From Treponema sp. (lineage in GTDB: Bacteria > Spirochaetota > Spirochaetia > Treponematales > Breznakiellaceae): 64,000 bases of DNA. Below, in pieces: positions 271 through 64,000 of this stretch (its first letter is position 1; every line of letters starts with the position of its first letter). The position numbers were made by a program, and so were the translations under genes. The notes under the pieces are model-generated. The model made no database searches and was not told the DNA's origin. It saw nothing but the letters and a program-made list of their open reading frames with translations. The stretch covers positions 1 through 64,000 of the forward strand of contig JAIRRJ010000107.1 in assembly GCA_031256035.1 (NCBI GenBank), written 5' to 3'.

Positions 271-2102
271 TACTCACTCCTTTTGTCGGCTTCCTGCACC
301 ATGCGGCGCTGCCATTCGATTAAATCTCGCTCAAATTCTTTGTCAGAACCTTCAACATCCGCCATTATACGGAAAACAGGCTCAGTGGCGGAACCGCGCA
401 TCCAAATAGCGGCAATTGCCCTGCCTTTATCGTTATGAAAAATGATTTTAAGCCCTCCATTCCCGGCGTCTCCAAAACGGCTCAAGTCCCGCTTTTCTTC
501 CATGCCATTATACGCAATTGCTTCCCAACTGTATATGCCGTATTGCGCTTTTAGCGTATCTTTGCGTCCCTCCCATTCCCGCAGAAAAACCTCCTGATAG
601 CGGTTTTTCAACTGGCTGTGCTCCTTTGTACTAATACGCAAAACAGCATCTTCGGAATAGGCTGGAGTAGTTACAAAAGGCGGAAGGCTGGCGATTATGT
701 CCGCAAGGCCAAAATTATCGCGGTACATTTCCAATTGACCGGAAAGCCTGCACCAAATCTCGAAAAGGCCGGGTTGCGCCGCGCTTGAACGTACCGTGAG
801 CATTTTTACCAATGCCAGAACAGTGTGAATCGGATCCCTTACTGCCGAAGGGTGGGTAATGTTTCCTCCTGCCGATCCTTCGCCAAGGATTCGCACAATA
901 AAGCCTTTTTCCCGCAGTTTGCGGGCAAGCCCCACCACATTCGCCTCCCCAACTTCGGCGCGGAAAACTTCTATACCAAACGCTTCGGCAATCCGGTCTA
1001 TGCGCATGGAAGTAGGATCGTTTACAGCAACAGCGGTCTTGGAAAGGGATCTGCCTATATCATGGCAGCCTGTCCAGACCAGATGGGAAAATTCCGCGAC
1101 GCAGGCAAGGGCAAAAACTTCCTGAGCCTCAAGGCTGCGCGCCTTTCCAAGAGTATCATCCCAAATGACCAGATTCCCCCGGTCGCCGTCACAATCCGGG
1201 GTATAGCCCAGTACAAAAGACGCATCTCGCTCATGGGCTTTTTCCAGCAGCAGCCGGCATGGCTCAAGAGATTCTCCTTCCGGCACAATGCGGTGGGCAA
1301 TTTCACCTGGTTTACCGTTTATACTGTCAAAGCGCAGTCCAAGAGAAGTAAAAAAAATTCTGTCAATTGACACAGTTCTTGCGCTGCCGTTAAAATCACA
1401 AACCACACCCAATTTGCATTTTTCAAGGCCTTGTTTTACTGTGGCGGCAATGTCTGCGCTGCTTGTGCTTGCGCCTGCGTTACTGTTCCACGCGACTTCG
1501 CCGCAAAAATCATAATAGGCTTTATAGCTTTCAGCCTTTGCCGCTTCCATGCCTGCGTATACCTTTTCAAGAGAAACAGGATCGGCGGATTGAATGAAAA
1601 ATTCAATTTCTTCTGCACAATCATCTTTATCAAGAAATGAACGTAAATCAGCGGTAAGTTTTGCCGTTTCTCCGGGCGACAAAACTCCTCCATCGGACAT
1701 GCCGAATTTAAGTCCGTTATGCCCAATGGGGTTGTGGCTTGCGGAAATATAAATAAAACTGTCTGCTGTAGAATTACGCGCCCATGCCATAATCTCAGGC
1801 GCGGCGGTAACTCCGGCATATCGTACACAACAACCCGAAGCCAGCAGAACGGGAATGATTACATTCGCAATGGCAGGCCCTGTGGGACGCGTATCGCTGC
1901 CAAGAAGAACTAACGGTTCCTTCCGAAAATTCCGGGTGTATTTTGCGATAACAAAAGCCGCTGCGCCGACAATTACGCGATATGCTTCATGGATTTCCTT
2001 CGCCGCACTCTCTTCGCCGCATATAGAAAAAATGCCACGCCAGCCAGAAGCAGAAAGAATCATATTATCAAGAACAGAATGTGTATTATCTTTACAAATC
2101 AT
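270..2102 (-). CDS. phosphoglucomutase/phosphomannomutase family protein
   Basis: This 610-residue enzyme of the alpha-D-phosphohexomutase superfamily interconverts hexose 1- and 6-phosphates. The four family motifs are present in order: the phosphoserine loop SASHNP with the serine near residue 122, the metal-binding loop DCDGDR near 303-308, the sugar-specificity loop GEGSAGG near 407-413, and the phosphate-binding RGSATEP near the C-terminus. It is somewhat longer than the usual 450-580 residues. Which hexose it prefers is not clear. The start at 2102 has no Shine-Dalgarno but has TATACT seven bases upstream, fitting a leaderless mRNA. It is followed in the same operon by the PUR-alpha gene. 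Confidence 0.9.
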   Translation of the reverse strand: MICKDNTHSVLDNMILSASGWRGIFSICGEESAAKEIHEAYRVIVGAAAFVIAKYTRNFRKEPLVLLGSDTRPTGPAIANVIIPVLLASGCCVRYAGVTAAPEIMAWARNSTADSFIYISASHNPIGHNGLKFGMSDGGVLSPGETAKLTADLRSFLDKDDCAEEIEFFIQSADPVSLEKVYAGMEAAKAESYKAYYDFCGEVAWNSNAGASTSSADIAATVKQGLEKCKLGVVCDFNGSARTVSIDRIFFTSLGLRFDSINGKPGEIAHRIVPEGESLEPCRLLLEKAHERDASFVLGYTPDCDGDRGNLVIWDDTLGKARSLEAQEVFALACVAEFSHLVWTGCHDIGRSLSKTAVAVNDPTSMRIDRIAEAFGIEVFRAEVGEANVVGLARKLREKGFIVRILGEGSAGGNITHPSAVRDPIHTVLALVKMLTVRSSAAQPGLFEIWCRLSGQLEMYRDNFGLADIIASLPPFVTTPAYSEDAVLRISTKEHSQLKNRYQEVFLREWEGRKDTLKAQYGIYSWEAIAYNGMEEKRDLSRFGDAGNGGLKIIFHNDKGRAIAAIWMRGSATEPVFRIMADVEGSDKEFERDLIEWQRRMVQEADKRSE

Positions 2103-2109
2103 TTGTCTA

Positions 2110-2138
2110 AGTATAAGCTTTTACATTTTTTTATTCCA
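2110..2138 (-). promoter_or_regulatory. promoter of the phosphomutase gene, leaderless type
   Basis: On the minus strand the -10 hexamer TATACT (2115-2110) lies seven bases before the ATG. The -35 (TGGAAT at 17-bp spacing) is weak. There is no purine-rich ribosome site between -10 and ATG. Confidence 0.5.
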
Positions 2139-2202
2139 TATCGCAAAATACATATGTTTTTGTAGAATGTAAGAAAAAAAACAAAAAAATGTCAAATATC
2201 TG

Positions 2203-2231
2203 TTGACATTTTCTAAAATACGAACGATAAT
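2203..2231 (+). promoter_or_regulatory. promoter of the AraC-type regulator, leaderless type
   Basis: A consensus TTGACA (2203-2208), a 17-bp spacer and GATAAT (2226-2231) end exactly six bases before the ATG at 2238. A transcript from this promoter should start at or next to the A of the start codon. Confidence 0.75.
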
Positions 2232-2237
2232 TTTGTT

Positions 2238-3137
2238 ATGTGCAATAATAAAAATTTGCAGGGAAAATTAAACGAGCGCCAAACTTCAGTTTCCGCGGTA
2301 GACAGGGAAAAACTGCAATCCCTGGCGGAAACGCTTTACGCAGAAACTCCTGCGGAAGGCGAGGATCACAACGAGATACTAAGGCGCAGAGCGGAGCGGC
2401 AGGAAGCCATTGCCAGAATAATCGGAGAGCTAAAACACAAATACCCCGAGAGCGGTAAAAAACCTGATTATCCGCTGGACAAGGAGAGGATGTTAATTGC
2501 CGCTCTGCGCAGGGGCAATTCTATTGAGGCAAAACAATTATTAAACGAACTTTTGGCAATGATCATTTTTTCCGGTCAGGGGCAATTCAAACATGTGCAA
2601 CTGCGAGCTGTTGAAATTGTCGTGCTTGTTTCCAGGGTCGAAATCAATCATGGAACTGACGGAAATGTCGTCATGGAGATCAATTGCAGCAGCCTTAAAC
2701 AGGTGCAGGATTCCAAGACTATTGAGGAATTGACTGATATTTTACATACAATTACGGACAAGGTGTCAAACGTCATCTCCTCTTTCCAGAGAATTCCCCA
2801 TGCCGCCGCCCTGCGGAAAGCGGAAATCTTTATACGGGACAATTTCACCAGGAAGCTAAGCCTGAAAGAAATATCCAGCGTGGCAGGCCTTTCAGCCCCG
2901 TATTTCAGCACCATCTTCAAGGAAGAGATGGGAGAAAATCTGTCAAAATACCTAAACCGTTTAAGGGTGGAAAAGGCAAGCCGTCTTCTTTTGGAAACGG
3001 ATATGTCTCTTGCCGAAATCGCCGGCAACTGCTGTTTTGAAGATCAGAGCTGGTTTTCCAAAATTTTCAAAATCTATGCAGGCATTAGCCCGGGAAAATA
3101 TCGTAATCAGGGAGGCGGCAGCCTTTCAGGAGGCTGA
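2238..3137 (+). CDS. AraC-family transcriptional regulator
   Basis: A 299-residue protein. The C-terminal 100 residues (about 196-295) hold the two helix-turn-helix motifs of AraC/XylS regulators: LSLKEISSVAGLSAPYFSTIFKEEMGE-like first helix pair, then SLAEIAGNCCFEDQSWFSKIFK and the terminal GISPGKYR. The N-terminal half is mostly helical and matches no sensor domain I recognise; it resembles the linker that follows PocR-type sensors, so the ligand domain may be missing. The gene diverges from the phosphomutase with 135 bp between the two starts and ends at a bidirectional terminator. No Shine-Dalgarno is present. Target genes are unknown, though the divergent neighbour is an obvious candidate. 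Confidence 0.85.
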   Translation: MCNNKNLQGKLNERQTSVSAVDREKLQSLAETLYAETPAEGEDHNEILRRRAERQEAIARIIGELKHKYPESGKKPDYPLDKERMLIAALRRGNSIEAKQLLNELLAMIIFSGQGQFKHVQLRAVEIVVLVSRVEINHGTDGNVVMEINCSSLKQVQDSKTIEELTDILHTITDKVSNVISSFQRIPHAAALRKAEIFIRDNFTRKLSLKEISSVAGLSAPYFSTIFKEEMGENLSKYLNRLRVEKASRLLLETDMSLAEIAGNCCFEDQSWFSKIFKIYAGISPGKYRNQGGGSLSGG

Positions 3138-4544: not shown

Positions 4545-4589
4545 AAACTTACATTTTCCCGGTTGAAAAACTTACATTTTCCCGGTTGA
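4545..4589. repeat. two tandem 22-bp repeats with 23-bp period upstream of the DUF4143 gene
   Basis: The 22-bp unit beginning AAACTTACATTTTCCC occurs at 4545-4566 and again, identically, at 4568-4589. The second copy ends 17 bases before the start codon at 4607, so the repeats overlap the expected promoter and may bind a regulator. Confidence 0.85.
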
Positions 4590-4606
4590 TGTATTATGCT
4601 TTTTAT

Positions 4607-5860
4607 ATGGGTAACTACCTTAAACGTTTTGCTGATACTGCCCTGCAAGACCGACTGAAAGAATCCGGGGCTGTTCTAATACAGGGACCTAAAAGCTGCG
4701 GCAAAACGGAAACTGCTGTTCAAACAGCGAAAAGTCTTATACGTCTCGACACCGATGTAGAAATGCGCGATCTCATGGAATTTAATCCAAATGCGGTGCT
4801 GGCAGGCCCTGCCCCCCGCCTGATAGATGAATGGCAGGAGTATCCCCAGATATGGAATTTCGTAAGGCGCGAGGTGGATGACCGGAAAAAAAAAGGACAG
4901 TTTATCCTTACCGGCTCCGCAAACCCCGAAGAACGGGCAAAACTCCATTCAGGCGCCGGACGTTTTTCAATTATAAAAATGCGGCCAATGTCGCTGTTTG
5001 AAAAAGGCTGGTCAAGCGGCGAAGTGAGTCTGGCTAAACTTATGAAGGGCGGCGTACCCGGATCGGGGCAGGCGGATTTCAGCCTGGAAAGTCTCGCGGA
5101 AAAAATAATCATTGGCGGGTGGCCAGGACTTATCGGTGCGGGAGGCAAGGCAGCATCGCGCTTTATGCAGGATTACATCGCTCTTATCGCCGAGGTGGAC
5201 ATCAGCAGGTTTGGCGGTAAAAAAAGAGACCCGCAAAAACTTTTGCGCCTTATGCAATCACTTGCCAGAAATATATCTACCGAAGCATCGCTTTCGTCTC
5301 TGGCAAAGGATACCGGCGGCCACCAGGCGCAAATCACCGATGATACCGTAGCTGAATACCTTGAAGCGCTTGAACGGCTCATGGTAGTTGAACATCTTCC
5401 CGCATGGAATACGCACATTCGTTCAGCCGATACCCTGCGCAAAGCGCCAAAGCGGCATTTTACAGACCCATCCCTCGCTGCCGGCTCTCTTGGCCTGAAT
5501 GTAGGTAAATTAATAAAAGATATAAATTATCTTGGTTACCTTTTTGAATCCCTAGTCATCCGCGATTTAAGAATTTACGCCGAGGCGCACGACGGAAAAG
5601 TCTACCATTACCGCGATTCACGGGATATGGAAGTAGACGCAATAATCGAATATCCCGACGGAACATGGGCGGCGTTTGAGGTAAAAATGGGTTTTAGCGC
5701 GCAGAACGAGGCCGCGGAGAATCTGCTTGCCTTTGCGAGAAAAGTAAATCAGGAGAAAATGGGACCGCCTGCGGCGTTGACTGTAATTACAGGCAACGGC
5801 TTTGCCTGCCGCCGCAAAGACAGAATAAATGTTGTGCCTTTACTGGTTTTAACCGCTTAA
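4607..5860 (+). CDS. DUF4143-type AAA ATPase
   Basis: A 417-residue P-loop ATPase of the ATP-binding protein/DUF4143 family. Walker A GPKSCGKT is at residues 27-34, the Walker B region reads APRLIDEWQ, the sensor segment is FILTGSAN, and the C-terminal DUF4143 domain ends with the nuclease-like pattern DAIIEYPDGTWAAFEVKM. The family is common in bacteria with many paralogues and no settled function; toxin-antitoxin-like roles have been suggested. I chose ATG 4607 because the conserved N-terminus MGNYLKRFADT begins there; the frame upstream runs through the tandem repeats. There is no Shine-Dalgarno, and TATTAT lies nine bases before the ATG. It converges with the aminotransferase, overlapping by four bases. 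Confidence 0.85.
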   Translation: MGNYLKRFADTALQDRLKESGAVLIQGPKSCGKTETAVQTAKSLIRLDTDVEMRDLMEFNPNAVLAGPAPRLIDEWQEYPQIWNFVRREVDDRKKKGQFILTGSANPEERAKLHSGAGRFSIIKMRPMSLFEKGWSSGEVSLAKLMKGGVPGSGQADFSLESLAEKIIIGGWPGLIGAGGKAASRFMQDYIALIAEVDISRFGGKKRDPQKLLRLMQSLARNISTEASLSSLAKDTGGHQAQITDDTVAEYLEALERLMVVEHLPAWNTHIRSADTLRKAPKRHFTDPSLAAGSLGLNVGKLIKDINYLGYLFESLVIRDLRIYAEAHDGKVYHYRDSRDMEVDAIIEYPDGTWAAFEVKMGFSAQNEAAENLLAFARKVNQEKMGPPAALTVITGNGFACRRKDRINVVPLLVLTA

Positions 5861-10432: not shown

Positions 10433-10461
10433 TTGCAAAAGCGCCGGTAACAGAATATAAT
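10433..10461 (+). promoter_or_regulatory. promoter of the HicB/HicA-type operon
   Basis: TTGCAA (10433-10438), a 17-bp spacer and a perfect TATAAT (10456-10461) nine bases before the ATG. There is no Shine-Dalgarno, so the leader would be two or three bases at most. Confidence 0.75.
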
Positions 10462-10470
10462 TGCAATTCT

Positions 10471-10686
10471 ATGGATGAATACACGGTAACTATAGCGTTT
10501 GATGATGAGGCGCAGAAATGGTACGCCCAAAACGATGATATTCCCATTATTCTTGAGGACTATTCTCTTGACACGTTGATCAACCGCATAAAATTGGCCG
10601 CACCGGAAATGCTGGAAGTTAACAACATGCCCCATGCCGGGATTAACCTGACATTCAGAATGGAAGCTCAGGCGGTCATGGCGTAA
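10471..10686 (+). CDS. DUF1902/HicB-like antitoxin
   Basis: A 71-residue acidic protein beginning MDEYTVTIAFDDEAQKWYAQNDDIP, which is the partial RNase H-like fold of HicB antitoxins and DUF1902 proteins. No C-terminal DNA-binding domain is present, unlike full-length HicB. Its stop overlaps the ATG of the downstream HicA-like toxin gene, as expected for a co-translated toxin-antitoxin pair. The antitoxin-first order is the less common one for hicAB. Confidence 0.8.
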   Translation: MDEYTVTIAFDDEAQKWYAQNDDIPIILEDYSLDTLINRIKLAAPEMLEVNNMPHAGINLTFRMEAQAVMA

Positions 10687-10880
10687 TGGCGGAATATGAA
10701 AAAAAAGTCCGCCAGATTCTGAAAGAATACGGCTGCTATTTCGTACGACACGGCAAAGGCGACCATGACATTTGGCACAGTCCGATAACCAACAGGAATA
10801 TTACCGTGGACGGAGAAATCCGCATTCGTCATGTTGCAAACGGGATTATGAAACAAGCCGGCATTGAGTACCATTTCTGA
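10686..10880 (+). CDS. hicA: HicA-like mRNA interferase toxin
   Basis: A 64-residue protein with the HicA pattern: an N-terminal helix (VRQILKEYGCYFVR), then HGKGDHDIWHSP with the catalytic histidine region, a beta strand (RNITVDGE) and the closing helix (ANGIMKQAGI). HicA folds as a double-stranded RNA-binding domain and cleaves mRNA. It overlaps the antitoxin gene by one base and looks intact. Confidence 0.85.
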   Translation: MAEYEKKVRQILKEYGCYFVRHGKGDHDIWHSPITNRNITVDGEIRIRHVANGIMKQAGIEYHF

Positions 10881-26337: not shown

Positions 26338-26343
26338 TAAAAT
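26338..26343 (+). promoter_or_regulatory. possible -10 element of a leaderless leuA transcript
   Basis: TAAAAT lies exactly six bases before the leuA ATG and there is no Shine-Dalgarno between. I see no good -35 at the right distance, so this is weaker than the other promoters; the gene may also be read from upstream. Confidence 0.35.
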
Positions 26344-26349
26344 ATTATA

Positions 26350-27885
26350 ATGATCGGCGATACACGCACAATTAAAATCCTCGATACCACCCTGAGGGAC
26401 GGAGAACAGGCGCCCGGATGCAGTATGAATCTGCCTGAAAAAATTGAAGTGGCAAGGCGGCTGGAAAGGCTTGGCGTTGATATTATCGAAGCGGGTTTCC
26501 CGGCTTCAAGTCCCGGAGACCTTGACGCTGTAAAAGCCATCGCAGGTGTCATAAAGAACAGCGCCGTTGCGTGCCTGTGCCGCTGTCTTGAAAAGGACAT
26601 TGACGCCGGACGGGAGGCGCTGGCGAAGGCGGCAAGCCCGCGCATTCATGTGTTTCTCGCGACTTCTCCCGTTCACATGGAATATAAACTTAAAATGACT
26701 GAAGCGCAGGTACTGGAACAGGCAACAGCCGCTGTAAGATACGCGAAAAAATTCTGCAATGATATTGAGTTTTCCGCAGAGGACGCTTTCCGCAGCGATC
26801 CTGATTTTGTCTGCAAAGTGTTCGCCGCCGCCATCGATGCGGGCGCACTGACGGTGAATTTCCCCGATACCGTAGGATACGCAATGCCTGCTGAATTCGG
26901 CGAGCGCATCCATTATGTGAAAGACCACACTCACGGCATGGAGAAGGCGTGCCTTTCAGTGCATTGCCACAACGATCTTGGGCTTGCGGTGGCGAATAGC
27001 CTCGCCGCGGTGAGCGCCGGAGCGGCGCAGGTTGAGTGTACGATCAACGGCATCGGAGAACGGGCGGGCAATGCGTCCCTTGAAGAATTTGTCATGGGCC
27101 TGCGCCTTCGCCGCGAGCTTTATTCCGCCGATACTCACATTGACAGCACGCAGATTTATTCTGTAAGCCGCCTCGTCTCTCAGGTTACGGGAATTAAACT
27201 CCCGCCGAACAAGGCTATTGTCGGCGATAACGCGTTCGCCCATGAAGCGGGAATTCACCAGCACGGAGTTTTGGCAAATCGGGAAACCTACGAAATCATG
27301 ACACCCGAATCTATCGGCATTCCCAAAAACACCATTGTCCTCGGCAAACATTCAGGCCGCCATGCCTTTGAAGAACGCCTGAAAGAATTGGGACTCCCCG
27401 TTGACGCTGAAACCTTTGAAAAAATATTCGCCGGTTTCAAGGAACTTGCCGATAAAAAGAAAGCTGTTAGCGACCGCGATATTGAAGCTCTGGTGAGGGA
27501 CATCGTTGTCTCAATACCAGAAACATGGAAGCTGGATCATTGGGCAGTGAACACGGGTTCTGCGCTTGGAGCGTCCGGCGTTATCCGCCTGCAGCACAAG
27601 GACGGCAAGTATGAAAAAATTGTTTCAATGGGAGACGGCCCTGTTGATTCGATATTCAAAGCGATTAACCAAATTATCGGCAAAGAGCCTGAGCTTGAGT
27701 TATACGAAATTGGCGCTATCACGGGCGGTTCGTCATCGCAGGGTGAAACAATGGTTAAAATCGCGATGAACGGGCAGAGGTGGAACGGGCACGGAGTGAG
27801 TACAGATATAATTGAATCATCAATAAAGGCGTATCTTTCGGCGATCAACGCAATGGAATATTATCTTTCGGAGAACGGAAAATGA
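26350..27885 (+). CDS. leuA: 2-isopropylmalate synthase
   Basis: A 511-residue enzyme that condenses acetyl-CoA with 2-oxoisovalerate in the first step of leucine synthesis. The N-terminal HMGL-like TIM barrel has [13 protein letters not shown], the metal-ligand motif [13 protein letters not shown] and [13 protein letters not shown]. The C-terminal third (from about 380) is the leucine-sensing LeuA dimer domain ([20 protein letters not shown], then GISTD-like [12 protein letters not shown]). Full length. It overlaps cimA by four bases. Confidence 0.93.
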
Positions 27886-34187: not shown

Positions 34188-34216
34188 TTGCGTTTGTCGC
34201 TTTAATGTACTAAAAT
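34188..34216 (+). promoter_or_regulatory. promoter of the second DUF4143 ATPase, leaderless type
   Basis: TTGCGT (34188-34193), a 17-bp spacer and TAAAAT (34211-34216) end six bases before the ATG. No Shine-Dalgarno is present. Confidence 0.65.
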
Positions 34217-34222
34217 CAACTT

Positions 34223-35518
34223 ATGAAAAGATTGATCGACCAAAAGTTGACCTGCTGGAAAAACAAGAAGGACAGAAAGCCCCTGCTTTTGGTAGGAGCA
34301 AGGCAAAACGGAAAAAGCCATTCAGTTTTAATTTTTGGCAAAGCGAATTATGCAAATGTAGTTTTACTTAATTTTGAAACAAGTGATGAACTTAAAAAGA
34401 TTTTTGATAGAGACCTTGAGCCAGCAAGAATTGTAAGAGATTTGGAAGGTTTTTCTCGTCAAACGATAAATCCTGGCAGCACCTTGATATTCTTTGACGA
34501 AATACAAGCCTGCGGCAGAGCGATTACGGCGCTGAAATACTTTTACGAGCAAGCGCCAGATTATCATATCATTGCTGCGGGCAGCTTACTTGGATCTTTT
34601 TTGGTAAGAGACTTTGTCTCGTTCCCTGTAGGAAAAGTTGACAGGCTTGTAATGTATCCCATGACCTTTCAGGAATTTTTGACGGAAATGAATCCGCAAG
34701 TTTTACCGCTCATTGAAGAATCATTTTATGCCAATACTCCGTTGACTTTGCATGAAAAAGCGCTTGAATTGTTCAGAACCTATTTGTTTACCGGCGGAAT
34801 GCCGAAAGCAATTTTGGAATGGAAGGAAAGGCAGGAACCTGTTTTTGTCTCGGCTGTTCATCAGGAAATCTTAAGTGTTTACACCGGTGATATGGGGAAA
34901 TATTCTACTCCTACTGAACAGGTAAAAACGATGGCGGTGTATGACAGCTTGCCGGCACAGCTTGCAAAAGAGAATAAGAAATTTCAATACTCACTAATCG
35001 GAAGCAACGCAAGAGCGGCTCATTATGAAATAGGATTGGAGTGGCTTCGTTCTGCAGGTCTGGTTTTGAAATGCCAGAAAACAAAAAAAGGCGAGCTTCC
35101 CATAGCGAGTTATGCAGATTTGACTTCATATAAAATTTATATGAGCGATATTGGTTTGTTAAACGCAAAAAGCGGTATTCCGTCCATTGTATTGTTATCT
35201 GAAAAATTACAAATTGCAGCCGAAGCAAAAGGCGCGATGATAGAAAATTATGTAATGCAGGAACTGATTGCAAACGGTTTAACCCCTTACTATTGGGAAA
35301 GCGACAACAGAGCGGAAGTAGATTTTATTATTCAGTTGAATGAAAATGTTATTCCCATAGAAACGAAAGCAGCAGACAACGTAAAGTCAAAAAGTTTACA
35401 GGTTTATGTCGGCAAATATTCGCCTGCGTATTCAATTCGCGTTTCAACCAAAAACTTTGGTTTTGAAAACAATATAAAAAGTTTGCCGCTTTATGCAGTA
35501 TGGTGTATTAAAGAATAA
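34223..35518 (+). CDS. DUF4143-type AAA ATPase, second copy
   Basis: A 431-residue P-loop ATPase with Walker A GARQNGKSHS (an N where most have V), Walker B TLIFFDEIQAC, the segment HIIAAGSLLG and the C-terminal DUF4143 domain with the nuclease-like VDFIIQLNENVIPIETKA. It belongs to a different subgroup from the copy at 4607, which shares little sequence with it. The base composition is richer in A and T than the flanking genes, in keeping with an acquired gene. It converges with the xdh operon two bases away. Function is not established for the family. Confidence 0.85.
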   Translation: MKRLIDQKLTCWKNKKDRKPLLLVGARQNGKSHSVLIFGKANYANVVLLNFETSDELKKIFDRDLEPARIVRDLEGFSRQTINPGSTLIFFDEIQACGRAITALKYFYEQAPDYHIIAAGSLLGSFLVRDFVSFPVGKVDRLVMYPMTFQEFLTEMNPQVLPLIEESFYANTPLTLHEKALELFRTYLFTGGMPKAILEWKERQEPVFVSAVHQEILSVYTGDMGKYSTPTEQVKTMAVYDSLPAQLAKENKKFQYSLIGSNARAAHYEIGLEWLRSAGLVLKCQKTKKGELPIASYADLTSYKIYMSDIGLLNAKSGIPSIVLLSEKLQIAAEAKGAMIENYVMQELIANGLTPYYWESDNRAEVDFIIQLNENVIPIETKAADNVKSKSLQVYVGKYSPAYSIRVSTKNFGFENNIKSLPLYAVWCIKE

Positions 35519-36920: not shown

Positions 36921-39208
36921 CAGATCAACCCCGCTTTTTTGAACTCGGTAAAAAGCAAATGAGGGCTGAGCGGAATGGAATTTACCGCGACTCCTGTTGC
37001 GTGTAACACTGCGTTGCGGATCGCCGAGGCTCCCGGCACAGTAGGCGGCTCTCCAAGGGCTTTTGTCCCATAAGGGCTAGTAGGCTCATGGTTTTCGATA
37101 AAATGCGCCTGAAGCCGTGGATGATCCAGAATAGTCGGCAGTTTGTAATCAAGCAGATTGCCGTTAAGGAGTTTTCCCGTTTTTGGGACATAGAGCATCT
37201 GTTCAAACATCCCGAAACCAATCGCCATGCTCATGCCGCCATGTACCTGCCCTTCCGCCGTTTTAGGATTGATTAGAGTGCCGCAGTCATGGCAGTTAAC
37301 CATTTCCAGCAAGGTTACTTTCCCAAGCGGAATGTCCACCTCCACTTCGGCAAAGGCGCATCCAAGACTGAACGCGTTGCTTTTAACCTGCGCGGTAACT
37401 TCGGCAGTTAAATGCTCGGCATGTTCAATATGGTAGAGGGTGTCTATGGCAAGTTCTTCCAGACTGACAAGTTTCTCATTGTTATGCGAAATCTGCACAA
37501 TGTTACCGTCAACAACATCCAGATCGGAAACAGGTTTACGGACATATTCAGCCGCTAACGTCAGGATTTTCTCTTTTAACATTCCGGCTGCCTTGTGAAC
37601 AGCCGCGCCGCCGACATAAGTCTGCCGCGATCCGTAAGCGCCAAGCCCGAACGGAGTTATGTCGGTATCCTGCGTGCTGATAACATGAACCTTCTGCCAG
37701 GGAATTCCCAATGTATGCGCCGCCATTTGGGCAAAGACCGTGTCCGCACCCTGACCAATTTCGGTTTCTGCAAGCTGAATCTGTACGCTGCCGTCCTGGT
37801 TCAATAGTATGCGGCAGGATGAAATCTCTATCGAAATCGGCCAAACAGCGGTGTTGTACCAGAAAAGGGACATCCCCACACCGCGCCTTACATTCCCGCT
37901 CTGTTTCGCGTAACGTTTGCGTTTTTCATCCCACTTGATCTGCACCCTGCCCGCTTCCACGCACTGCCGAAGCGAATCAAAACGATTGACGTTTTTGGTA
38001 AACGGATCTACATAGCCGACAGGCATCATGTTGAGGAAGCGAAATTCAAGAGGGTCAATGTTCATGTTACGCGCAATATCTTCGATATGGGATTCAATTG
38101 CGAACACTGCCTGCGGAGTGCCGTAACCGCGCATTGCGCCCGCTGTTGCGGTGTTGGTATAGACCGTAAATATTTCGGTCTTGCGCGCTTTTTCATCGTT
38201 GTACAACTGGCGGAAAGCATTTGTCCCTTTGGCGGCAATTCCGTGACCGTGCGAACCGTAAGCACCCTGATTGGACAGGGCTTTGTAAGAGCGGGCAACA
38301 AGCCGCCCATCGTGCCGCACCCAGCTTTTCAAAAAAATCTTTTCGGCGTGGCGCACCCTTGTGGCGCAGAAAACTTCCTCCCTAGAAAGTTCCAGCTTTA
38401 CAAGCCGCCCTCCGATTTTCGTACACAAAAAAGCATTCAGCGGCTCGTAGAGGCTGTCCTGTTTGTTGCCAAAACCGCCGCCGATATATGGTTTTATTAT
38501 GCGCACATTGCCCCAGGGCAGCCCAAGCGCCTGCGCCACAATGCGCCGTAAAATGTGCGGAATCTGGGTGGAAGAGTAAATCACAATGCGGTCGTTTTCC
38601 ATGTACGCCCAAGATGTTACAGTTTCAATATGGCAATGCTGCACGATGGGAGTTTCATACACTCCCTCAAAACAGAGAAGCCCCTCTTCTTTTATCGCGG
38701 CTTCAAAATCGCCGTCCTCTACGGAAGTGTGTTTCAGAATATTTCCCGGACATTCTTCATGAAGGATGGATGCGCCGTCCTTCATCGCGTCTTCCGGCGA
38801 TAAAATTACAGAATACTCCTCATACTCAACCTTTATTGCTCTGAGCGCCCGTGATGCGCTAATTTCGTCTTCGGCAATTACTGCCGCAATGTCATCACCG
38901 TAAAATCTCACTCTTTTGTTGAGCAGCCGCCTGTCCATAGGATCGCGGTGAGAAGGATCCGTTGACCAGGGATGGCCGGCGGTAGGATAGGGAAAATCCG
39001 GCACATCAAAACAAGTAATGATTTTTACAACGCCGGGAATTTTCTCAGCTTCGCCTGTATCGATTTTTTTCACGAGGCCGTTGGCAATCGTAGAGTGAAG
39101 AACTTTGGCTGTCAGGGCGTTGCGATCAACAAGGTCGTCGGTGTACTTTGCCCGACCTGAAACTTTTTCCCATGCATCAACTCTGGGAATGCTTTGCCCA
39201 ATGCTCAT
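36920..39208 (-). CDS. xdhA: molybdenum hydroxylase catalytic subunit (XdhA/CoxL type)
   Basis: A 762-residue subunit that holds molybdopterin cytosine dinucleotide. The features are the N-terminal RVDAWEKVSGRAKYTDD, GGGFGNKQD (cofactor loop), MRGYGTPQAVFAIE, the EIGQGADTVFAQMAA stretch, and EPPTVPGASAIRNAV where the catalytic glutamate lies one position from GEPP in KALGEPP. Gene order catalytic-FAD-FeS equals xdhABC of E. coli, so purine hydroxylation is the first guess, but other N-heterocycles or aldehydes are possible. There is no Shine-Dalgarno; a -10 lies six bases before the ATG. Confidence 0.9.
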   Translation of the reverse strand: MSIGQSIPRVDAWEKVSGRAKYTDDLVDRNALTAKVLHSTIANGLVKKIDTGEAEKIPGVVKIITCFDVPDFPYPTAGHPWSTDPSHRDPMDRRLLNKRVRFYGDDIAAVIAEDEISASRALRAIKVEYEEYSVILSPEDAMKDGASILHEECPGNILKHTSVEDGDFEAAIKEEGLLCFEGVYETPIVQHCHIETVTSWAYMENDRIVIYSSTQIPHILRRIVAQALGLPWGNVRIIKPYIGGGFGNKQDSLYEPLNAFLCTKIGGRLVKLELSREEVFCATRVRHAEKIFLKSWVRHDGRLVARSYKALSNQGAYGSHGHGIAAKGTNAFRQLYNDEKARKTEIFTVYTNTATAGAMRGYGTPQAVFAIESHIEDIARNMNIDPLEFRFLNMMPVGYVDPFTKNVNRFDSLRQCVEAGRVQIKWDEKRKRYAKQSGNVRRGVGMSLFWYNTAVWPISIEISSCRILLNQDGSVQIQLAETEIGQGADTVFAQMAAHTLGIPWQKVHVISTQDTDITPFGLGAYGSRQTYVGGAAVHKAAGMLKEKILTLAAEYVRKPVSDLDVVDGNIVQISHNNEKLVSLEELAIDTLYHIEHAEHLTAEVTAQVKSNAFSLGCAFAEVEVDIPLGKVTLLEMVNCHDCGTLINPKTAEGQVHGGMSMAIGFGMFEQMLYVPKTGKLLNGNLLDYKLPTILDHPRLQAHFIENHEPTSPYGTKALGEPPTVPGASAIRNAVLHATGVAVNSIPLSPHLLFTEFKKAGLI

Positions 39209-39214
39209 AATGAT

Positions 39215-39243
39215 ATTGTGCTACGGTCTTTCAGGAAAAGCAA
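39215..39243 (-). promoter_or_regulatory. xdhABC promoter, leaderless type
   Basis: Minus-strand TTGCTT (39243-39238), a 17-bp spacer and CACAAT (39220-39215), ending six bases before the xdhA ATG. Confidence 0.55.
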
Positions 39244-39260: not shown

Positions 39261-39290
39261 TTGACTAATTATAGATTGTTACATTATACT
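39261..39290 (+). promoter_or_regulatory. antitoxin promoter, leaderless type
   Basis: TTGACT (39261-39266), an 18-bp spacer and TATACT (39285-39290), ending six bases before the ATG at 39297. It lies back to back with the xdhA promoter, so one bound protein could affect both. Confidence 0.7.
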
Positions 39291-39296
39291 GAAAAT

Positions 39297-39545
39297 ATGG
39301 AAACAGCAATATCACTTTCAGATACATTATTTGAAAAAGCCGAGCAAACAGCACATTATATGGGTATTCATCGCAGCCAATTATTTGTAATGGCCTTGGA
39401 GGATTATATCAGTAGATATAATGGAGAAATGATAACAAAAAAAATAAATGAAGTTTATGAAAAAGTTAATCAGGATGAATTTGCCAAGGATATGAATGTT
39501 GGACTTGAATCATTAAGGAATTTTACAAAAAATGACACGTGGTGA
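39297..39545 (+). CDS. MazE/ChpI-like antitoxin without its toxin
   Basis: An 82-residue protein starting METAISLSDTLFEKAEQTAHYMGIHRSQLF. This is a ribbon-helix-helix DNA-binding head like that of MazE/ChpI antitoxins, followed by an acidic helical tail that would wrap a toxin (VNQDEFAKDMNVGLESLRN). The frame extends upstream to 39105 but only through xdhA antisense, and the ATG at 39297 fits the promoter. The expected MazF-type toxin gene is reduced to a 9-codon remnant. Confidence 0.8.
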   Translation: METAISLSDTLFEKAEQTAHYMGIHRSQLFVMALEDYISRYNGEMITKKINEVYEKVNQDEFAKDMNVGLESLRNFTKNDTW

Positions 39546-41342: not shown

Positions 41343-41371
41343 TTGTTTTAGAAGGTCAATCGGGCTAAACT
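41343..41371 (+). promoter_or_regulatory. promoter of the XRE regulator, leaderless type
   Basis: TTGTTT (41343-41348), a 17-bp spacer and TAAACT (41366-41371), seven bases before the ATG at 41379. There is no Shine-Dalgarno. Confidence 0.6.
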
Positions 41372-41378
41372 TTGAAAA

Positions 41379-41738
41379 ATGACGGAAACAATCAATGACC
41401 GAATAAAAAAAATCAGGCTGGAACTTGGACTTTCGCAGGTAAAATTCTGCAAAGAGATTTTTTTATCGCCGGGGCATTATGCGGGAATTGAGCTATATAA
41501 CCGCGAAGTAAATAAACGGATCATCAAGCTGGTATCGGTAATTTACAATGTAAGGGAAGAGTACCTGAAAACCGGCAAAGAGCCTATTTTTTCAAAGGTT
41601 CCCGATTTGAAACTACAAAAAATGATTGGCATTTTCCAGGAACTGCCGGATGATTACAAAGACTATGTTTTACAACAGATAGATCAGTTAAAAAAATTGC
41701 GCTCAAAAACAGAGAGAAAACAAAAAATTGACAGATGA
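41379..41738 (+). CDS. XRE-family regulator
   Basis: A 119-residue protein with a helix-turn-helix at about 6-62 (INDRIKKIRLELGLSQVKFCKEIFLSPGHYAGIE) and the connector VYNVREEYLKTGKEPIF typical of the Treponema/Clostridium XRE proteins. The C-terminal helix (ELPDDYKDYVLQQIDQLKKL) probably mediates dimerisation. It diverges from the small acidic protein gene and overlaps the start of the mocA-like gene by 11 bases. Confidence 0.83.
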   Translation: MTETINDRIKKIRLELGLSQVKFCKEIFLSPGHYAGIELYNREVNKRIIKLVSVIYNVREEYLKTGKEPIFSKVPDLKLQKMIGIFQELPDDYKDYVLQQIDQLKKLRSKTERKQKIDR

Positions 41739-52806: not shown

Positions 52807-53628
52807 CTATAGTCCCAGTATACGTTTCCTGTACGCATCGCCTATGCGCTTCAGGCTTTTGGCGGCAGTTTCACCGGGCAAAGCTTGTTTTTTTAAATCG
52901 ATAGTAAATTGGTTCATGGAGAAGTGACGGAAAATAAAAAGTTGTTTGCACATACTGCCTTTATTTGCATATAACTTCTTCAAGACTTCTGTATAAACCT
53001 CGAAAATTCCTGTTTTTTTCATTTCGGAATATCCGGTAATCCAGACCTGCGCGCCAAGAGCTTCATGAAATTCCAAAAGAAGAGCCGCCATTGTTCTTTG
53101 TGATTTTTCAATAGCCGCAGCAACAGTTCCGTCGGCCGAAAGGCGGCATATTTCACGTAATTCCGTGGTGCGGGGAGAATGGATTGGCGTTTTGTTCAGG
53201 ATTATTACATTCCTGCGGAAATCAATGCCGAGCGCCGGATTATCGCGAAAGAATTTTTCAGCAATTTTACCCGAAGGTCCCACAAGATACCTTTTGTTTT
53301 CCGCTGCCTGTTCACGCCGGCCTGGGTTATCCGCTACAAGAATCAGTTTTATTTCATCATCTATCGTTACATCGTCAAGGGCGCTGTTATACACAACGGG
53401 AGTTTCTACGGTATAAGCTTGATTTTTTCCGGCGCGGCTGTTGGCAAATTGCTGCTGGATGTTTTTCAAATCAGGCAGAGAGCGATCCAGTTCTTCCACT
53501 GTAGAGCGAAAGTGATTTCTAATCTTTACAAATTTTTTCCAAACATCGCTGTTCAAAAAGACGCCTTCCTTTGTATTTAGCATAAAGGAACATTTTACAT
53601 GCCGCAAGCCTTGCAAAATGTACAGCAT
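52807..53628 (-). CDS. uracil-DNA glycosylase superfamily-like protein
   Basis: Up to 273 residues. The segment LILVADNPGRREQAAENKRYLVGPSGKIAEKFF matches motif A of UDG families 4/5 (GEAPGxxE...GRPFVGxAGxLL) with changes, and VIILNKTPIHSPRTTEL sits where those enzymes have the N-x-(V/L)KCRPPxNR strand. No iron-sulfur cysteines are seen. It may be a distant family with altered specificity. The start is uncertain: ATG 53628 has TAAAAT six bases upstream (leaderless type), while internal TTG and ATG codons also exist. It diverges from rsmG. Confidence 0.6.
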   Translation of the reverse strand: MLYILQGLRHVKCSFMLNTKEGVFLNSDVWKKFVKIRNHFRSTVEELDRSLPDLKNIQQQFANSRAGKNQAYTVETPVVYNSALDDVTIDDEIKLILVADNPGRREQAAENKRYLVGPSGKIAEKFFRDNPALGIDFRRNVIILNKTPIHSPRTTELREICRLSADGTVAAAIEKSQRTMAALLLEFHEALGAQVWITGYSEMKKTGIFEVYTEVLKKLYANKGSMCKQLFIFRHFSMNQFTIDLKKQALPGETAAKSLKRIGDAYRKRILGL

Positions 53629-53639
53629 TTTGTTATTTT
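53611..53639 (+). promoter_or_regulatory. rsmG promoter
   Basis: TTGCAA (53611-53616), a 17-bp spacer ending in an extended -10 (TG then one base) and TATTTT (53634-53639), 12 bases before the ATG. It overlaps the start of the divergent UDG-like gene. No Shine-Dalgarno follows. Confidence 0.55.
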
Positions 53640-53651
53640 AGTTTTCACTGC

Positions 53652-54374
53652 ATGAAAACCGATGAAAATATTCTTACAGACGGCATTCAGGTCTTGAGGA
53701 AAAACGATGAGGACATCGAACGCCTCATTTCCTCTCATGGCGGCGATTTTTTTTCACTTCTTGACCGTTACATCTCGGAAATTGAACTTTTTAATTCAGC
53801 TTACGGTCTTGTTGGAACAAGCGACCGCCGTGAACTGATTGTCAAACACATTCTTGATTCGCTTGCTCCTGCAGGAATAATATCCCGCCTGCTGGCTGAA
53901 TTATGCGCAAATGACAGTGAAGTCAACCCGCCGCATATTGCCGATGCCGGTTCAGGTGCTGGATTGCCCGGCATTCCCCTGTCAATTATTATGCCGCGAT
54001 GTGATTTTACCCTCATTGAACGAATGAACCGCCGGACAGGTTTTCTGTGGAATGTAAAAGCATCTTTGAATCTTTCCAATGTCAGTGTGGAAGAAACGGA
54101 ACTGGAAAAAACTGCGCCTGGACGTTTCCGGCTTGTAACCTTCCGGGCTTTTAAGCCGTTGGAACCAAAATTGCTCAAAAGCATTTTCCGCATCTGTGCA
54201 GATGATGGAATCATCGCCGCCTATAAGGGACGGCTGGAAAAAATCAAAAAGGAAATGTTGTCTCTGGAAAAATTGTGCGGCAAATGGGAAGCGATCTCCT
54301 ATGCAGTGCCTTTTCTTGACGAAGAACGGCATCTACTGGTAATAAAGCCTCTTTCAGCTAATATCCGATTTTAA
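53652..54374 (+). CDS. rsmG: 16S rRNA (guanine-N7) methyltransferase
   Basis: A 240-residue AdoMet-dependent enzyme that methylates G527 of 16S rRNA. The AdoMet loop is ADAGSGAGLPGIPLSI, preceded by the conserved ELFNSAYGLVGTSDRRELIVKHILDSL, and followed by LIERMNRRTGFLWNV and TFRAFKPLEP. The end overlaps the convergent YihY-type gene by 21 bases. There is no Shine-Dalgarno. Confidence 0.93.
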   Translation: MKTDENILTDGIQVLRKNDEDIERLISSHGGDFFSLLDRYISEIELFNSAYGLVGTSDRRELIVKHILDSLAPAGIISRLLAELCANDSEVNPPHIADAGSGAGLPGIPLSIIMPRCDFTLIERMNRRTGFLWNVKASLNLSNVSVEETELEKTAPGRFRLVTFRAFKPLEPKLLKSIFRICADDGIIAAYKGRLEKIKKEMLSLEKLCGKWEAISYAVPFLDEERHLLVIKPLSANIRF

Positions 54375-55661
54375 GGCGGTAACCTGTTCATTGGTATTTT
54401 TAAGCTTGCGTGACATATATTCAATAATTGCCCTGTCAATGCCGGTATCGTTATTGAGAATTTCTTCGAATAATGATGGAGGCAGCGCCAATGCGGATAT
54501 ATCGGTTTTCGCGCTGACCGTTGCGCTTCGCTGTTCAGATAACAGGTATCCCATTTCGCCGAAAAAGGAACCCGGCGTCAGTGTGTCGATAAAACTGCCG
54601 CCCCGTGATGATAAAATATTCACCTCAACCTCGCCTTCAAGAAGATAATAAATATCGTCCCAGGTATCTCCCTGAGAAAAAATTATTTCTCCTTTTTTAT
54701 GAGTGCGGAAATATTTATTTAAATTGCCTTCCGTTGAAAAAAATAATTTCTCAAGCGCGTCTTCGTGCCGTGATTTTTTTTCTCCCGCCTTGCTTCTTGT
54801 GTGCCTTAGTTTTGAAAAAAGAAGCGCGTCAAATGAATCATCCACATACGCAACCTGTGCTCCCAAAAAGAAAAAAATGAAAAAGAAATACACATTGACC
54901 AGTAAAATAACAAGACTTCCCAATGTGCCATAGATAAAATTGTAATTGGACTGATCAATTAGAATTCCCAGCGCCAGAGTTGTACACCCGTAAGTAAGTG
55001 TCAGAAAAAGAGCGCCCCAAAAGGCGGATAATTTCTTCGGTGAATTCGCCGGCATAAACCGGTATATAAAGAACGCAACGATTCCCATCAGGACAATAAA
55101 GAAAAACCGTCCCCTGATTACGGAAATTATTAATTTTAAACTTGATGTATCAGTGAAAAAATTAAGCGTTCTATAAAAACGGAGCGCGGTCTGCGAGCCA
55201 AGAATGAGCAAAAGCACAAACAGAAGCATCCCTACTTCGGCAGCAAGGGTAACCAAAGTATCTATCAGAGGATTTCTGCTTTTAGTACCGGGAAAGATAA
55301 CCCTTAATCCCCTCTGCACGGAAAGTAACAATATCCTTCCCGCCCAGAAAACGCTCAGCGCTGAAATAATTCCGGGAATACCCGACTGGGAAATAGACAA
55401 AAAGTTAATACTCAACCAGTGTTCATCATAGATAATATCAGAAAATGGAATGTTTCCGACCAGCGCGGCAATTTCCTGCGGAGACGGCTTAAAGACAACA
55501 AGAAGGAAGGAAGTGATCAATAACAGCAGAGGCGCGAGAGAAAGAAAAAAACCATAAGCGCCGGCTGCGGCATGGTTTGCAAGGCCGTTTCTATCAAACA
55601 ACTCCAGGATAATAAACAGACGCTGCGCATGAGTTTTTACGGTTACTTTTATTTTTTCCAT
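54354..55661 (-). CDS. YihY-family membrane protein fused to a cyclic-nucleotide-binding domain
   Basis: A 435-residue protein from ATG 55661. Residues about 1-290 are the YihY/BrkB (formerly RNase BN) membrane domain with six hydrophobic helices, including AAGAYGFFLSLAPLLLLITSF and IYGTLGSLVILLVNVYFFFIFFFLGAQVAYV. After a basic linker, residues about 315-425 form a cNMP-binding domain: KKGEIIFSQGDTWDDIYYLLEGEVEV, then GSFFGEMGYLLSEQRSATVSA, where the phosphate-binding cassette is FGEMGYL...RSATV. This predicts a membrane protein gated by cAMP or cGMP. A -10 (TATGAT) lies seven bases before the ATG. Confidence 0.88.
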   Translation of the reverse strand: MEKIKVTVKTHAQRLFIILELFDRNGLANHAAAGAYGFFLSLAPLLLLITSFLLVVFKPSPQEIAALVGNIPFSDIIYDEHWLSINFLSISQSGIPGIISALSVFWAGRILLLSVQRGLRVIFPGTKSRNPLIDTLVTLAAEVGMLLFVLLLILGSQTALRFYRTLNFFTDTSSLKLIISVIRGRFFFIVLMGIVAFFIYRFMPANSPKKLSAFWGALFLTLTYGCTTLALGILIDQSNYNFIYGTLGSLVILLVNVYFFFIFFFLGAQVAYVDDSFDALLFSKLRHTRSKAGEKKSRHEDALEKLFFSTEGNLNKYFRTHKKGEIIFSQGDTWDDIYYLLEGEVEVNILSSRGGSFIDTLTPGSFFGEMGYLLSEQRSATVSAKTDISALALPPSLFEEILNNDTGIDRAIIEYMSRKLKNTNEQVTALKSDIS

Positions 55662-55725
55662 ATTATGTATCATATAACAGTAAAGAAAAAAAATCATTTG
55701 CCGACAATCAATAGAGGGGAATATT

Positions 55726-58508: not shown

Positions 58509-58537
58509 TTCAATACAAACAAATTAAGGAATATAAT
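58509..58537 (+). promoter_or_regulatory. promoter of the zinc peptidase gene, leaderless type
   Basis: TTCAAT (58509-58514), a 17-bp spacer and a perfect TATAAT (58532-58537) seven bases before ATG 58545. Confidence 0.7.
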
Positions 58538-58544
58538 CGGCAAT

Positions 58545-59633
58545 ATGCTGAAAAATACCTTGTTACACTTTCAGCCTCTGCTCCCGTTTTCACCGGTAAT
58601 CGCCGCCGCGGCGCTGCTTTTGGCGGTGTGCATTTCCTGTTCTGGGTGCTACACCCTCAAGCAGGGTAGTACCATGCTCGGCTACCTGAACCGCGCAATC
58701 CCGCTGGGGCAGCTTTCCTCGGAAAATGAAGCTGATGCGGAATTTGTGCGGCTGGTTCAGGATATCCGCTATTTTGCCATGGAAGAGCTGGGGCTAAAGA
58801 TGAGCAAAAATTACACCAGCTATGTTCAGCTTGATCGCGGCTATCTTGCGGCGGTTGTCTCGGCATCGGCGCCGGATTCATTTACCCGCCATGATTGGCA
58901 TTTTCCCGTAGTGGGCGCAATGCCGTACAAGGGTTTTTTCAATGCTGAGGATGCGCGGAAGGAACGGACAAAACTTGAAAAAAAAGGGCTTGATGTCTGG
59001 GTGCGCGGAGTGGACGCGTTCAGCACACTGGGCTGGTTCAAAGACCCGCTTTATTCATACATGCGCGATTATTCTCCCAGCAGGCTTGCCGATCTTCTCA
59101 TCCACGAATTGTTACACGCAACGGTGTTTATCAAGGGGCAGGTCAAATTCAATGAGGAACTGGCTGAATTCATAGGCAGCGAAGGCGCACGGCTGTATGT
59201 GGAATCCCGCTTCGGCGCTGATTCAGAAGAATACAAAGGGATGTTTGCATCCGATACCGATGGGAAAAAATTTGTTGAATTTATCCGGGAGTTGATCGCA
59301 GAACTGGACGCGCTGTACAAAACCGCTCTTGACAGGGAAGAAAAGTTAAAGGAAAAGGAACGGATCATCACGGCGGCAAAAGAACGTTTTGACTCTGAAT
59401 ACGAAAGCCGCTTTTCAAATGATAATTACCGTGGTTTTTCCGATCTGCCCGTAAACAACGCCTACCTTGAACTTTACAGACTCTACCATGCGGAAGATAA
59501 TTTCTATGCAGAACTGTATGAACGTTCAGGGCGAAACCTTCCCGCCTTTGTCGCCGCCGCTAAAACTGTAACAAAGAAAAACGGCAATCCACGGCTGCAA
59601 CTGGAAAAAGCGCTTACTGCGGGATATAATTAG
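58545..59633 (+). CDS. predicted zinc aminopeptidase, lipoprotein
   Basis: A 362-residue protein of the Aminopep (PF10023) family. The signal peptide (VIAAAALLLAVCIS) ends near the lipobox region SCSGC. The zinc motif HELLH is in LADLLIHELLHATVF near residue 190, followed by FNEELAEFIGSEG carrying the third-ligand glutamate. The rest is helical with a charged coiled coil (REEKLKEKERIITAAKERF). It probably acts in the periplasm. Its substrate is not known. Confidence 0.85.
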   Translation: MLKNTLLHFQPLLPFSPVIAAAALLLAVCISCSGCYTLKQGSTMLGYLNRAIPLGQLSSENEADAEFVRLVQDIRYFAMEELGLKMSKNYTSYVQLDRGYLAAVVSASAPDSFTRHDWHFPVVGAMPYKGFFNAEDARKERTKLEKKGLDVWVRGVDAFSTLGWFKDPLYSYMRDYSPSRLADLLIHELLHATVFIKGQVKFNEELAEFIGSEGARLYVESRFGADSEEYKGMFASDTDGKKFVEFIRELIAELDALYKTALDREEKLKEKERIITAAKERFDSEYESRFSNDNYRGFSDLPVNNAYLELYRLYHAEDNFYAELYERSGRNLPAFVAAAKTVTKKNGNPRLQLEKALTAGYN

Positions 59634-62799: not shown

Positions 62800-62844
62800 A
62801 TTATCGGCAAAAACAGTGTAAAAAACGCAAAAATAACCGATAAT
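62800..62844. repeat. inverted repeat before the TPR gene
   Basis: ATTATCGG (62800-62807) and CCGATAAT (62837-62844) are exact complements 29 bases apart, just upstream of the ATG at 62852. It could be an operator or fold in the leader. Confidence 0.5.
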
Positions 62845-62851
62845 ATAGGAT

Positions 62852-64000
62852 ATGATTTCTATTTTACTTGGCGTAATTGGCATCGTTGCGGTGGTAGGCG
62901 TAGTTTTTTTTATAATGAATCGTTCCAAAGGCGGCTCACCCGCAGGAGGCATGAAGCACTCCAAGGATACAGACGCCGTTGTCAGGGAAGCCAACAAGAG
63001 GCTTGCCCAGAATCCGAATGATCTGGAAGCGCAGTACGCCCTCGCCGGAGCTTATTTCGATCAGGAAAACTGGGATAAAGCCATGAAAGCCTTTGAATTC
63101 GTGGCGGATCATATTGCAATGGGCCAGGTTGCCGGAATCGATAATTTTGAAGTGTATTTGCGATATGGTCTGTCGGCTCGCAAGCTTGGTATGCTCGAAC
63201 AGTCATATAAGGCTTTCTCGGCGGCAAGAGGCTACAGAAAAGATAATTTTGAAGTAAACTACGAGCTTGGCGCTCTTGAATTTGAAAGAAAAAATTATGA
63301 AAAAGCTGTTCAGCTTTTGCAGCAGGCTAAGACCCAGAATCCCGACGACCCGGCAGTTCTCCGCTATCTGGGGCATGCGCTTTTCAGGCTGAAAAAACCC
63401 AAAGAAGCGATGAGTTTTATCCGCAAAGCCATAGACCTTGCCCCGGATGACAAGGAATCACTTTACACTCTGGCAGAATGTTATCATGAGGCTAACCAGA
63501 TAGAGCAGGCGCTGCGTATCTTCAACCACCTTAGGGCTGATCCGGTAATGGGACCTGAATCCTGCCTGATAGCGGGGACCATCCATTTGGACACCAGGCA
63601 GAACCAGGCCGCTGTTCAGGATTTTGAAATAGGCCTGAAACATAAAAACATTAAAGCTGACATTCTTGCGGAACTGCGTTACAAGCTTGCCACTACCTAC
63701 TTAAAAGAAAATGAAATCGGCAAGGCGATACCTCTTCTTAAACAACTACAGTCAGAAAATCCTTCATACAAGGATGTTGGCGTTTTGTTAGGCAAATATG
63801 CAGAACTTCACGCCAACCGCAATTTACAGACATTTCTTATGTCCTCCTCGGCTGATTTTGTAGCCCTTTGCCGAAGAATTGTAATGACCTATTACCAAAG
63901 GGCAAAAGTGAAAGTTACCAACATTTCGGTAAATAAAAATGAATGGGCGGACATTCTGGCTGAAATAGACACTCCCAAGTGGTCTGATCTGATCATGTTC
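62852..64000 (+). CDS. membrane-anchored TPR protein, C-terminus beyond window
   Basis: The plus-strand frame from ATG 62852 is open for 383 codons to the window edge. It starts with a membrane helix (MISILLGVIGIVAVVGVVFF), then six or more TPR units (EVNYELGALEFERKNYEKAVQLLQ, AVLRYLGHALFRLKKPKEAMSF, SLYTLAECYHEANQIEQALRIF). The last visible part (FLMSSSADFVALCRRIVMTYYQRAKV, then NEWADILAE) looks like the start of another domain, possibly the Mrr-like nuclease fold that follows TPRs in some treponemal proteins. GATAAT lies seven bases before the ATG. Confidence 0.85.
   Translation, partial: MISILLGVIGIVAVVGVVFFIMNRSKGGSPAGGMKHSKDTDAVVREANKRLAQNPNDLEAQYALAGAYFDQENWDKAMKAFEFVADHIAMGQVAGIDNFEVYLRYGLSARKLGMLEQSYKAFSAARGYRKDNFEVNYELGALEFERKNYEKAVQLLQQAKTQNPDDPAVLRYLGHALFRLKKPKEAMSFIRKAIDLAPDDKESLYTLAECYHEANQIEQALRIFNHLRADPVMGPESCLIAGTIHLDTRQNQAAVQDFEIGLKHKNIKADILAELRYKLATTYLKENEIGKAIPLLKQLQSENPSYKDVGVLLGKYAELHANRNLQTFLMSSSADFVALCRRIVMTYYQRAKVKVTNISVNKNEWADILAEIDTPKWSDLIMF

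Follow-up and report, generated by a model that had tools for sequence, protein, structure and literature searches.

Ordinary sigma70 promoters in this genome of an uncultured termite-gut Treponema, and throughout its order, very probably yield leaderless mRNAs for part of the first genes. The geometry behind this reading is plain: the boxes are real promoters, with a matching -35 at 16 to 18 bp, and those at leaderless distance are confined to genes that have their own promoter and are not found at operon-internal genes. Sigma70 initiates about 7 nt after the -10, so the RNA would begin at the A of the ATG, or at most about 3 nt ahead of it. Such an mRNA would have neither a leader nor a Shine-Dalgarno (SD) sequence, and its translation would follow the leaderless route, in which the 5ʹ-terminal AUG is recognised by the 70S ribosome or the initiator tRNA. 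About 10–15% of first genes would use this mode, with the conventional SD route serving the remaining and operon-internal genes, and the arrangement would be common among autonomously transcribed HTH regulators.

The window, the whole stretch of DNA that was analysed, comprises 64,000 nt (bases 1–64000 of contig C3) from a MAG of 3.12 Mb in 120 contigs, which is without a 16S rRNA. Among named genomes, MAGs of termite-gut Treponema are its nearest relatives. The genome-level sample consisted of stretches totalling 1.5 Mb out of the 3.1 Mb of the same genome. A home-made caller based on a hexamer coding score, whose choice of starts is blind to promoters and SD sequences, called 1170 genes in it. 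First genes were those in divergent orientation or separated by 80 nt or more from a co-directional gene upstream, and 494 of them start with ATG. Sites were scored with a -35/-10 matrix from a training set outside the window and tested against upstream sequences rebuilt column by column, a null (column-permuted) that keeps position-specific composition.

The earlier note had predicted that -10 hexamers would be enriched 6–7 nt before starts relative to shuffled sequence, and such enrichment was found in the 1.5-Mb sample. With gaps of 5–9 nt, TATAAT (at most one mismatch) precedes 87 of the 494 first genes against 30.1 expected (z 11.9), whereas operon-internal genes show no excess at these gaps (11 vs 7.7 expected). 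Consensus -35/-10 pairs at the same gaps are found at 30/494 first genes, compared with 3.0 expected, and at none of the operon-internal genes (0.8 expected); every other 5-nt bin up to 50 nt holds 15 such pairs or fewer. Sigma70 promoters at leaderless distance are thus widespread, as that note had claimed, and belong to first genes only. A cross-validated PWM scores 62 of the 494 first genes higher than the 1% null level, compared with about 5 expected. A -35 accompanies part of these boxes: of 80 TATAAT candidates, 22 have a TTG at a spacing of exactly 17 bp, and spacings of 15, 16, 18 and 19 give 2–6. When the excess is summed over bins to 60 nt, approximately 30% of the promoters that can be recognised at first genes lie at leaderless distance. 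A separate short-leader class has its -10 ending 14–21 nt before the ATG. A sigma28 reading of CCGATAA boxes was rejected, as the 9 matches at gaps of 0–25 nt compare with 6.8 by uniform rate and show no enrichment before genes.

In the window, seven first genes had been singled out for -35/-10 pairs with 17- or 18-bp spacing and a -10 ending 6–9 nt before the ATG. All seven sites are present as described, each above the composition-matched null (p from <0.0001 to 0.0064). Upstream of the AraC gene (2203–2240, plus strand), TTGACA (2203–2208) and GATAAT (2226–2231) are 17 bp apart, and 6 nt separate the -10 from the ATG at 2238 (p 0.0002). The HicB-like gene at 10471 (10433–10473, plus strand) has TTGCAA, a 17-bp spacer, TATAAT (10456–10461) and a 9-nt gap to its ATG (p <0.0001). 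This 71-aa HicB-like ORF is followed by a 64-aa ORF that has the look of a putative HicA-type protein (window 10471–10880). Six-nucleotide gaps to the ATG are seen at an AAA_14/DUF4143 ATPase gene at 34223 (34188–34225, plus strand; TTGCGT, 17 bp, TAAAAT at 34211–34216; p 0.0010), at an xdhA-type gene at 39208 (39206–39243, minus strand; TTGCTT, 17 bp, CACAAT at 39215–39220; p 0.0054) and at an 82-aa ORF at 39297 (39261–39299, plus strand; TTGACT, 18 bp, TATACT at 39285–39290; p 0.0004), earlier labelled an antitoxin and without a Pfam match. The gap to the ATG is 7 nt at the XRE (HTH_3) gene at 41379 (41343–41381, plus strand; TTGTTT, 17 bp, TAAACT at 41366–41371; p 0.0064) and at a putative aminopeptidase gene at 58545 (58509–58547, plus strand; TTCAAT, 17 bp, TATAAT at 58532–58537; p 0.0006).

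Of six weaker examples listed alongside these, four are marginal, one is not significant and one fails. The PGM/PMM gene at 2102 (2100–2115, minus strand) has TATACT (2110–2115) 7 nt before its start and a weak -35, TGGAAT (p 0.009); a second DUF4143 ATPase gene at 4607 (4572–4609, plus strand) has TTACAT, 17 bp, TATGCT (4595–4600) and a 6-nt gap to the ATG (p 0.025). A good -35 is absent from the LeuA-like gene at 26350 (26338–26352, plus strand; TAAAAT, 6-nt gap, ATG; p 0.038), from the BrkB/cNMP-binding gene with start 55661 (55659–55674, minus strand; TATGAT, 7-nt gap, ATG; p 0.040) and from the ORF at 53628 (53626–53640, minus strand; TAAAAT, 6-nt gap), which is not significant (p 0.07). 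The site at 53652 was rejected (p 0.85 against the column-permuted null). Genes 53628 and 53652 are divergent, and with only 23 bp between their starts the promoter of each has to extend into the other gene; neither listed start has a convincing promoter. The weak single sites at 26350, 53628, 53652 and 55661 may be chance. An additional site, absent from the earlier list, lies at the TPR-protein gene at 62852 (62839–62854, plus strand), where GATAAT (62839–62844) ends 7 nt before the ATG (p 0.014).

Very little probability attaches to the reading that the promoters are real and the starts mis-called, the true start lying downstream behind an SD sequence so that the mRNAs have short ordinary leaders. 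The short-leader class does exist, and some relatives of the peptidase and xdhA genes have short leaders. However, an in-frame downstream start with an SD within 25 codons is rarer among leaderless candidates (7%) than among SD genes (11%) or among genes that show neither signal (17%). Against mis-calling also stand the XRE family, in which the -10 ends exactly 6 nt from the same ATG, and xdhA, in which N-termini are conserved from residue 1.

The XRE family of gene 41379 is the best single case of leaderless geometry. Among 19 homologs from the same genus (42–48% identity), 18 have TTG, a 17-bp spacer (18 bp in one), TATNAT, exactly 6 nt and ATG. These gaps comprise 13 different sequences, and in the -10 only one position of six varies. 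A transcription start tied to the ATG predicts just this, a gap constant in length and free to vary in sequence. The XRE promoters (L208–L226) also have TTGCATAGTGAGT in common; it extends from the -35 into the spacer and is a candidate operator, probably autoregulatory.

Retention of the arrangement is also seen across ortholog pairs with agreeing starts: 11 of 14 retain the leaderless state (6 of these 14 pairs being the single gene 62852), compared with 1 of 104 for other genes. At 62852 the arrangement is retained in five of six start-consistent relatives. An inverted repeat, ATTATCGGC ... CCGATAAT, spans this promoter (window 62800–62852), with the -10 region as its downstream half; at least one relative (L020) has both halves too, and the repeat may be an operator. 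At the peptidase gene 58545, a strict -10 at 5–9 nt is kept in 10 of 25 relatives, and the others have leaders. A recurring block, TAGAATAAT followed by ATAAAATGCAAG or similar, lies upstream of the peptidase gene in L017, L023, L026, L027 and L028, and in L017 it holds a possible mini-ORF, ATG CAA GCA TGA.

The leaderless state at xdhA is not conserved in its five relatives (82–87% identity over the first 200 residues), which have a longer leader, mostly with a purine-rich SD-like stretch; in the closest comparison, L124 has CACAATGATATTATAGAGGTTTTTATG and this genome CACAATATCATTATG. Because the relatives are leadered with an SD, loss of the leader would be recent and specific to this lineage, and xdhA is best read in this way. 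A leaderless state could thus arise from a leadered gene, as the comparison at xdhA suggests. The frame of the AraC gene 2238 has 306 codons (window 2102–3137), whereas most relatives have approximately 430–520; it is about 130–200 codons shorter than in same-genus relatives, and the relatives' match usually starts at residue 1 of its protein. AraC 2238 therefore appears truncated at the N-terminus, and its leaderless promoter would probably be specific to this lineage. Same-genus relatives often have two neighbouring AraC paralogs, and only one was found here. VirF21 of Shigella, likewise a short AraC-type protein, is made from a leaderless mRNA (PMC5101355), a likeness that is analogy only.

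Operon genes in this genome carry strong SD signals, as the earlier note had stated, so the cell retains both routes, and a full-length S1 protein is encoded. The accompanying claim was that leaderless sites are without an SD, and an SD is present in 4 of 80 leaderless candidates. This is not independent evidence: an SD is also rare when other AT-rich hexamers occupy the same place (0–14% for most permutations), so its absence is mechanical, and SD depletion was dropped as evidence for the leaderless state.

The genes served by these promoters were said to over-represent regulators, toxin-antitoxin and surface genes, which suggested that initiation could be switched as a class. For HTH-type regulators the bias is borne out. 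Outside the window, a -10 at 5–9 nt before the start (TATAAT with at most one mismatch, or TANNNT) precedes 11 of 20 AraC- and XRE-type regulators and 166 of 1040 other genes (p 9e-5). With operon-internal genes removed the counts are 10/18 and 146/724 (p 0.001), and among strict first genes the enrichment is significant only for the looser motif (7/14 vs 115/523, p 0.02). Response regulators outside the window are not enriched (7/34). In a small, hand-classified comparison by Pfam scan, about 7 regulators were counted among 40 leaderless first genes and 1 among 40 that are SD-led. Enrichment of surface genes was not supported, and surface proteins tend to be SD-led: the leaderless 40 held just a repeat protein and a PQQ-type protein, whereas the SD-led 40 held LRR surface proteins, FlaA and a solute-binding protein, in addition to DnaA, DnaN, GyrB and RpoB.

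A regulatory class co-switched at translation, say through ribosomes modified under stress or a shift in initiation factors, is a highly improbable reading of this bias. The HTH enrichment is in its favour, as are a PemK/MazF-family protein of this genome that scores above the family cut-off and a second, borderline one; for this toxin family a role in favouring leaderless mRNAs was proposed in E. coli (Vesper et al. 2011, as cited in PMC5397173). However, PemK/MazF-family proteins are common and prove nothing, response regulators do not take part in the enrichment, and the leaderless set includes such ordinary enzymes and transporters as a tRNA synthetase, MTHFR, UxuA, amidohydrolases and various transporters; nothing in these data shows a switch. 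Moreover, enrichment of transcription genes (COG K) among leaderless genes is already known across bacteria, without a switch (PMC3160421); for D. radiodurans no pathway bias was reported (PMC12340547). Only marginally less doubtful is the proposal that in Treponematales leaderless starts were selected for self-standing HTH regulators, with an operator, promoter and start sharing about 35 bp so as to combine autoregulation and initiation, and with the whole set co-responsive to the state of the ribosome or initiation factors.

Least probable of all is a composition effect, in which an AT-rich stretch before the start, unstructured for translation, yields TATAAT-like hexamers by chance: the region before starts is AT-rich, and first genes are richer in upstream TANNNT than operon genes at all distances, but column-permuted sequences of identical position-specific composition give 30 against the 87 observed, which refutes the idea at genome level, consensus pairs are tenfold above expectation, and TATAAT (80 occurrences at the leaderless position) is the commonest of all 20 permutations of its letters, the others giving 12–41 and being without TTG at 17 bp save for those that overlap TATAAT-like boxes.

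Ordinary sigma70 promoters at leaderless distance, the preferred reading, extend well beyond this genome. Run through the same pipeline on 250 kb each, E. coli K-12, the negative control, gave 7 sites against 6.3 expected, no excess, and plasmid 3 of Deinococcus deserti, a species known for leaderless mRNAs and used as positive control, gave a clear excess of 12 against 3.4. The gap-6 peak occurs in three other same-genus genomes and in named termite Treponema loci; the same-genus TANNNT signal by itself is modest (27 vs 17.6). The peak is likewise present in a genome of 68% GC from another family of the order, where the motif is otherwise rare and TANNNT gives 24 against 5.4. With a control of matched spacing, the hexamer test was positive for whole genomes of the order as well. 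The pattern TTG-N20-TANAAT followed by ATG occurs 840 times at 5–7 nt and 274 times at the control distance of 11–13 nt in 17 genomes, all 17 in the same direction; the requirements of SD genes may lower this control count a little, but a reversed-pattern control in the same genomes is lower still (4 vs 35 in the genome under study). By pattern counts only, family f10 and several neighbouring families are also positive, and family f7 (genomes of 1.0–1.8 Mb) and family f27 have none. The arrangement is thus a conserved property of the order, identified as Treponematales by named relatives.

Leaderless genes are a known bacterial style, and the order-wide Treponema case is new and well supported. 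The leaderless arrangement is also found in Actinobacteria, and leaderless genes of Deinococcus-Thermus were reportedly described by de Groot et al. in 2014. As in Deinococcus-Thermus, the Treponema -10 ends about 6–7 bp before the ORF and coexists with SD genes, and D. deserti gives the same computational signature in the same pipeline. However, the Treponema -10 is nearer to full TATAAT, often has a -35 at 17 bp and serves a smaller share of genes, and the Treponema case is known here from sequence. In Deinococcus, the same -10 motif 6–7 bp before ORFs drives leaderless transcription (PMC12340547). Within the phylum, dRNA-seq of Leptospira interrogans, a distant spirochaete, found about 440 genes with a 5ʹ UTR shorter than 10 nt, roughly half of them shorter than 2 nt, and identified no promoter motif except sigma54 (PMC5243855), whereas the Treponema sigma70 motif is clear and order-wide. 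Signals of the same type were computed in 6 of 18 Spirochaetes genomes, at 1.8–6.9% of genes (mean 3.9%), by Zheng et al. 2011 (PMC3160421), whose text names no Treponema and whose study does not extend to uncultured Treponema from termite guts, to conservation among orthologs or to the XRE family. A literature search of incomplete coverage found no paper on mapped leaderless starts in Treponema.

Judged from sequence alone, leaderless expression would be a lasting feature of the whole order, well beyond a few odd genes, and the annotation of starts, promoters and leaders in many uncultured genomes is affected. The leadered and leaderless sister copies of xdhA offer a natural before-and-after comparison of how a leaderless gene originates. 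Together with the XRE family and its exact 6 nt, they form a test set for the gain and loss of leaders.
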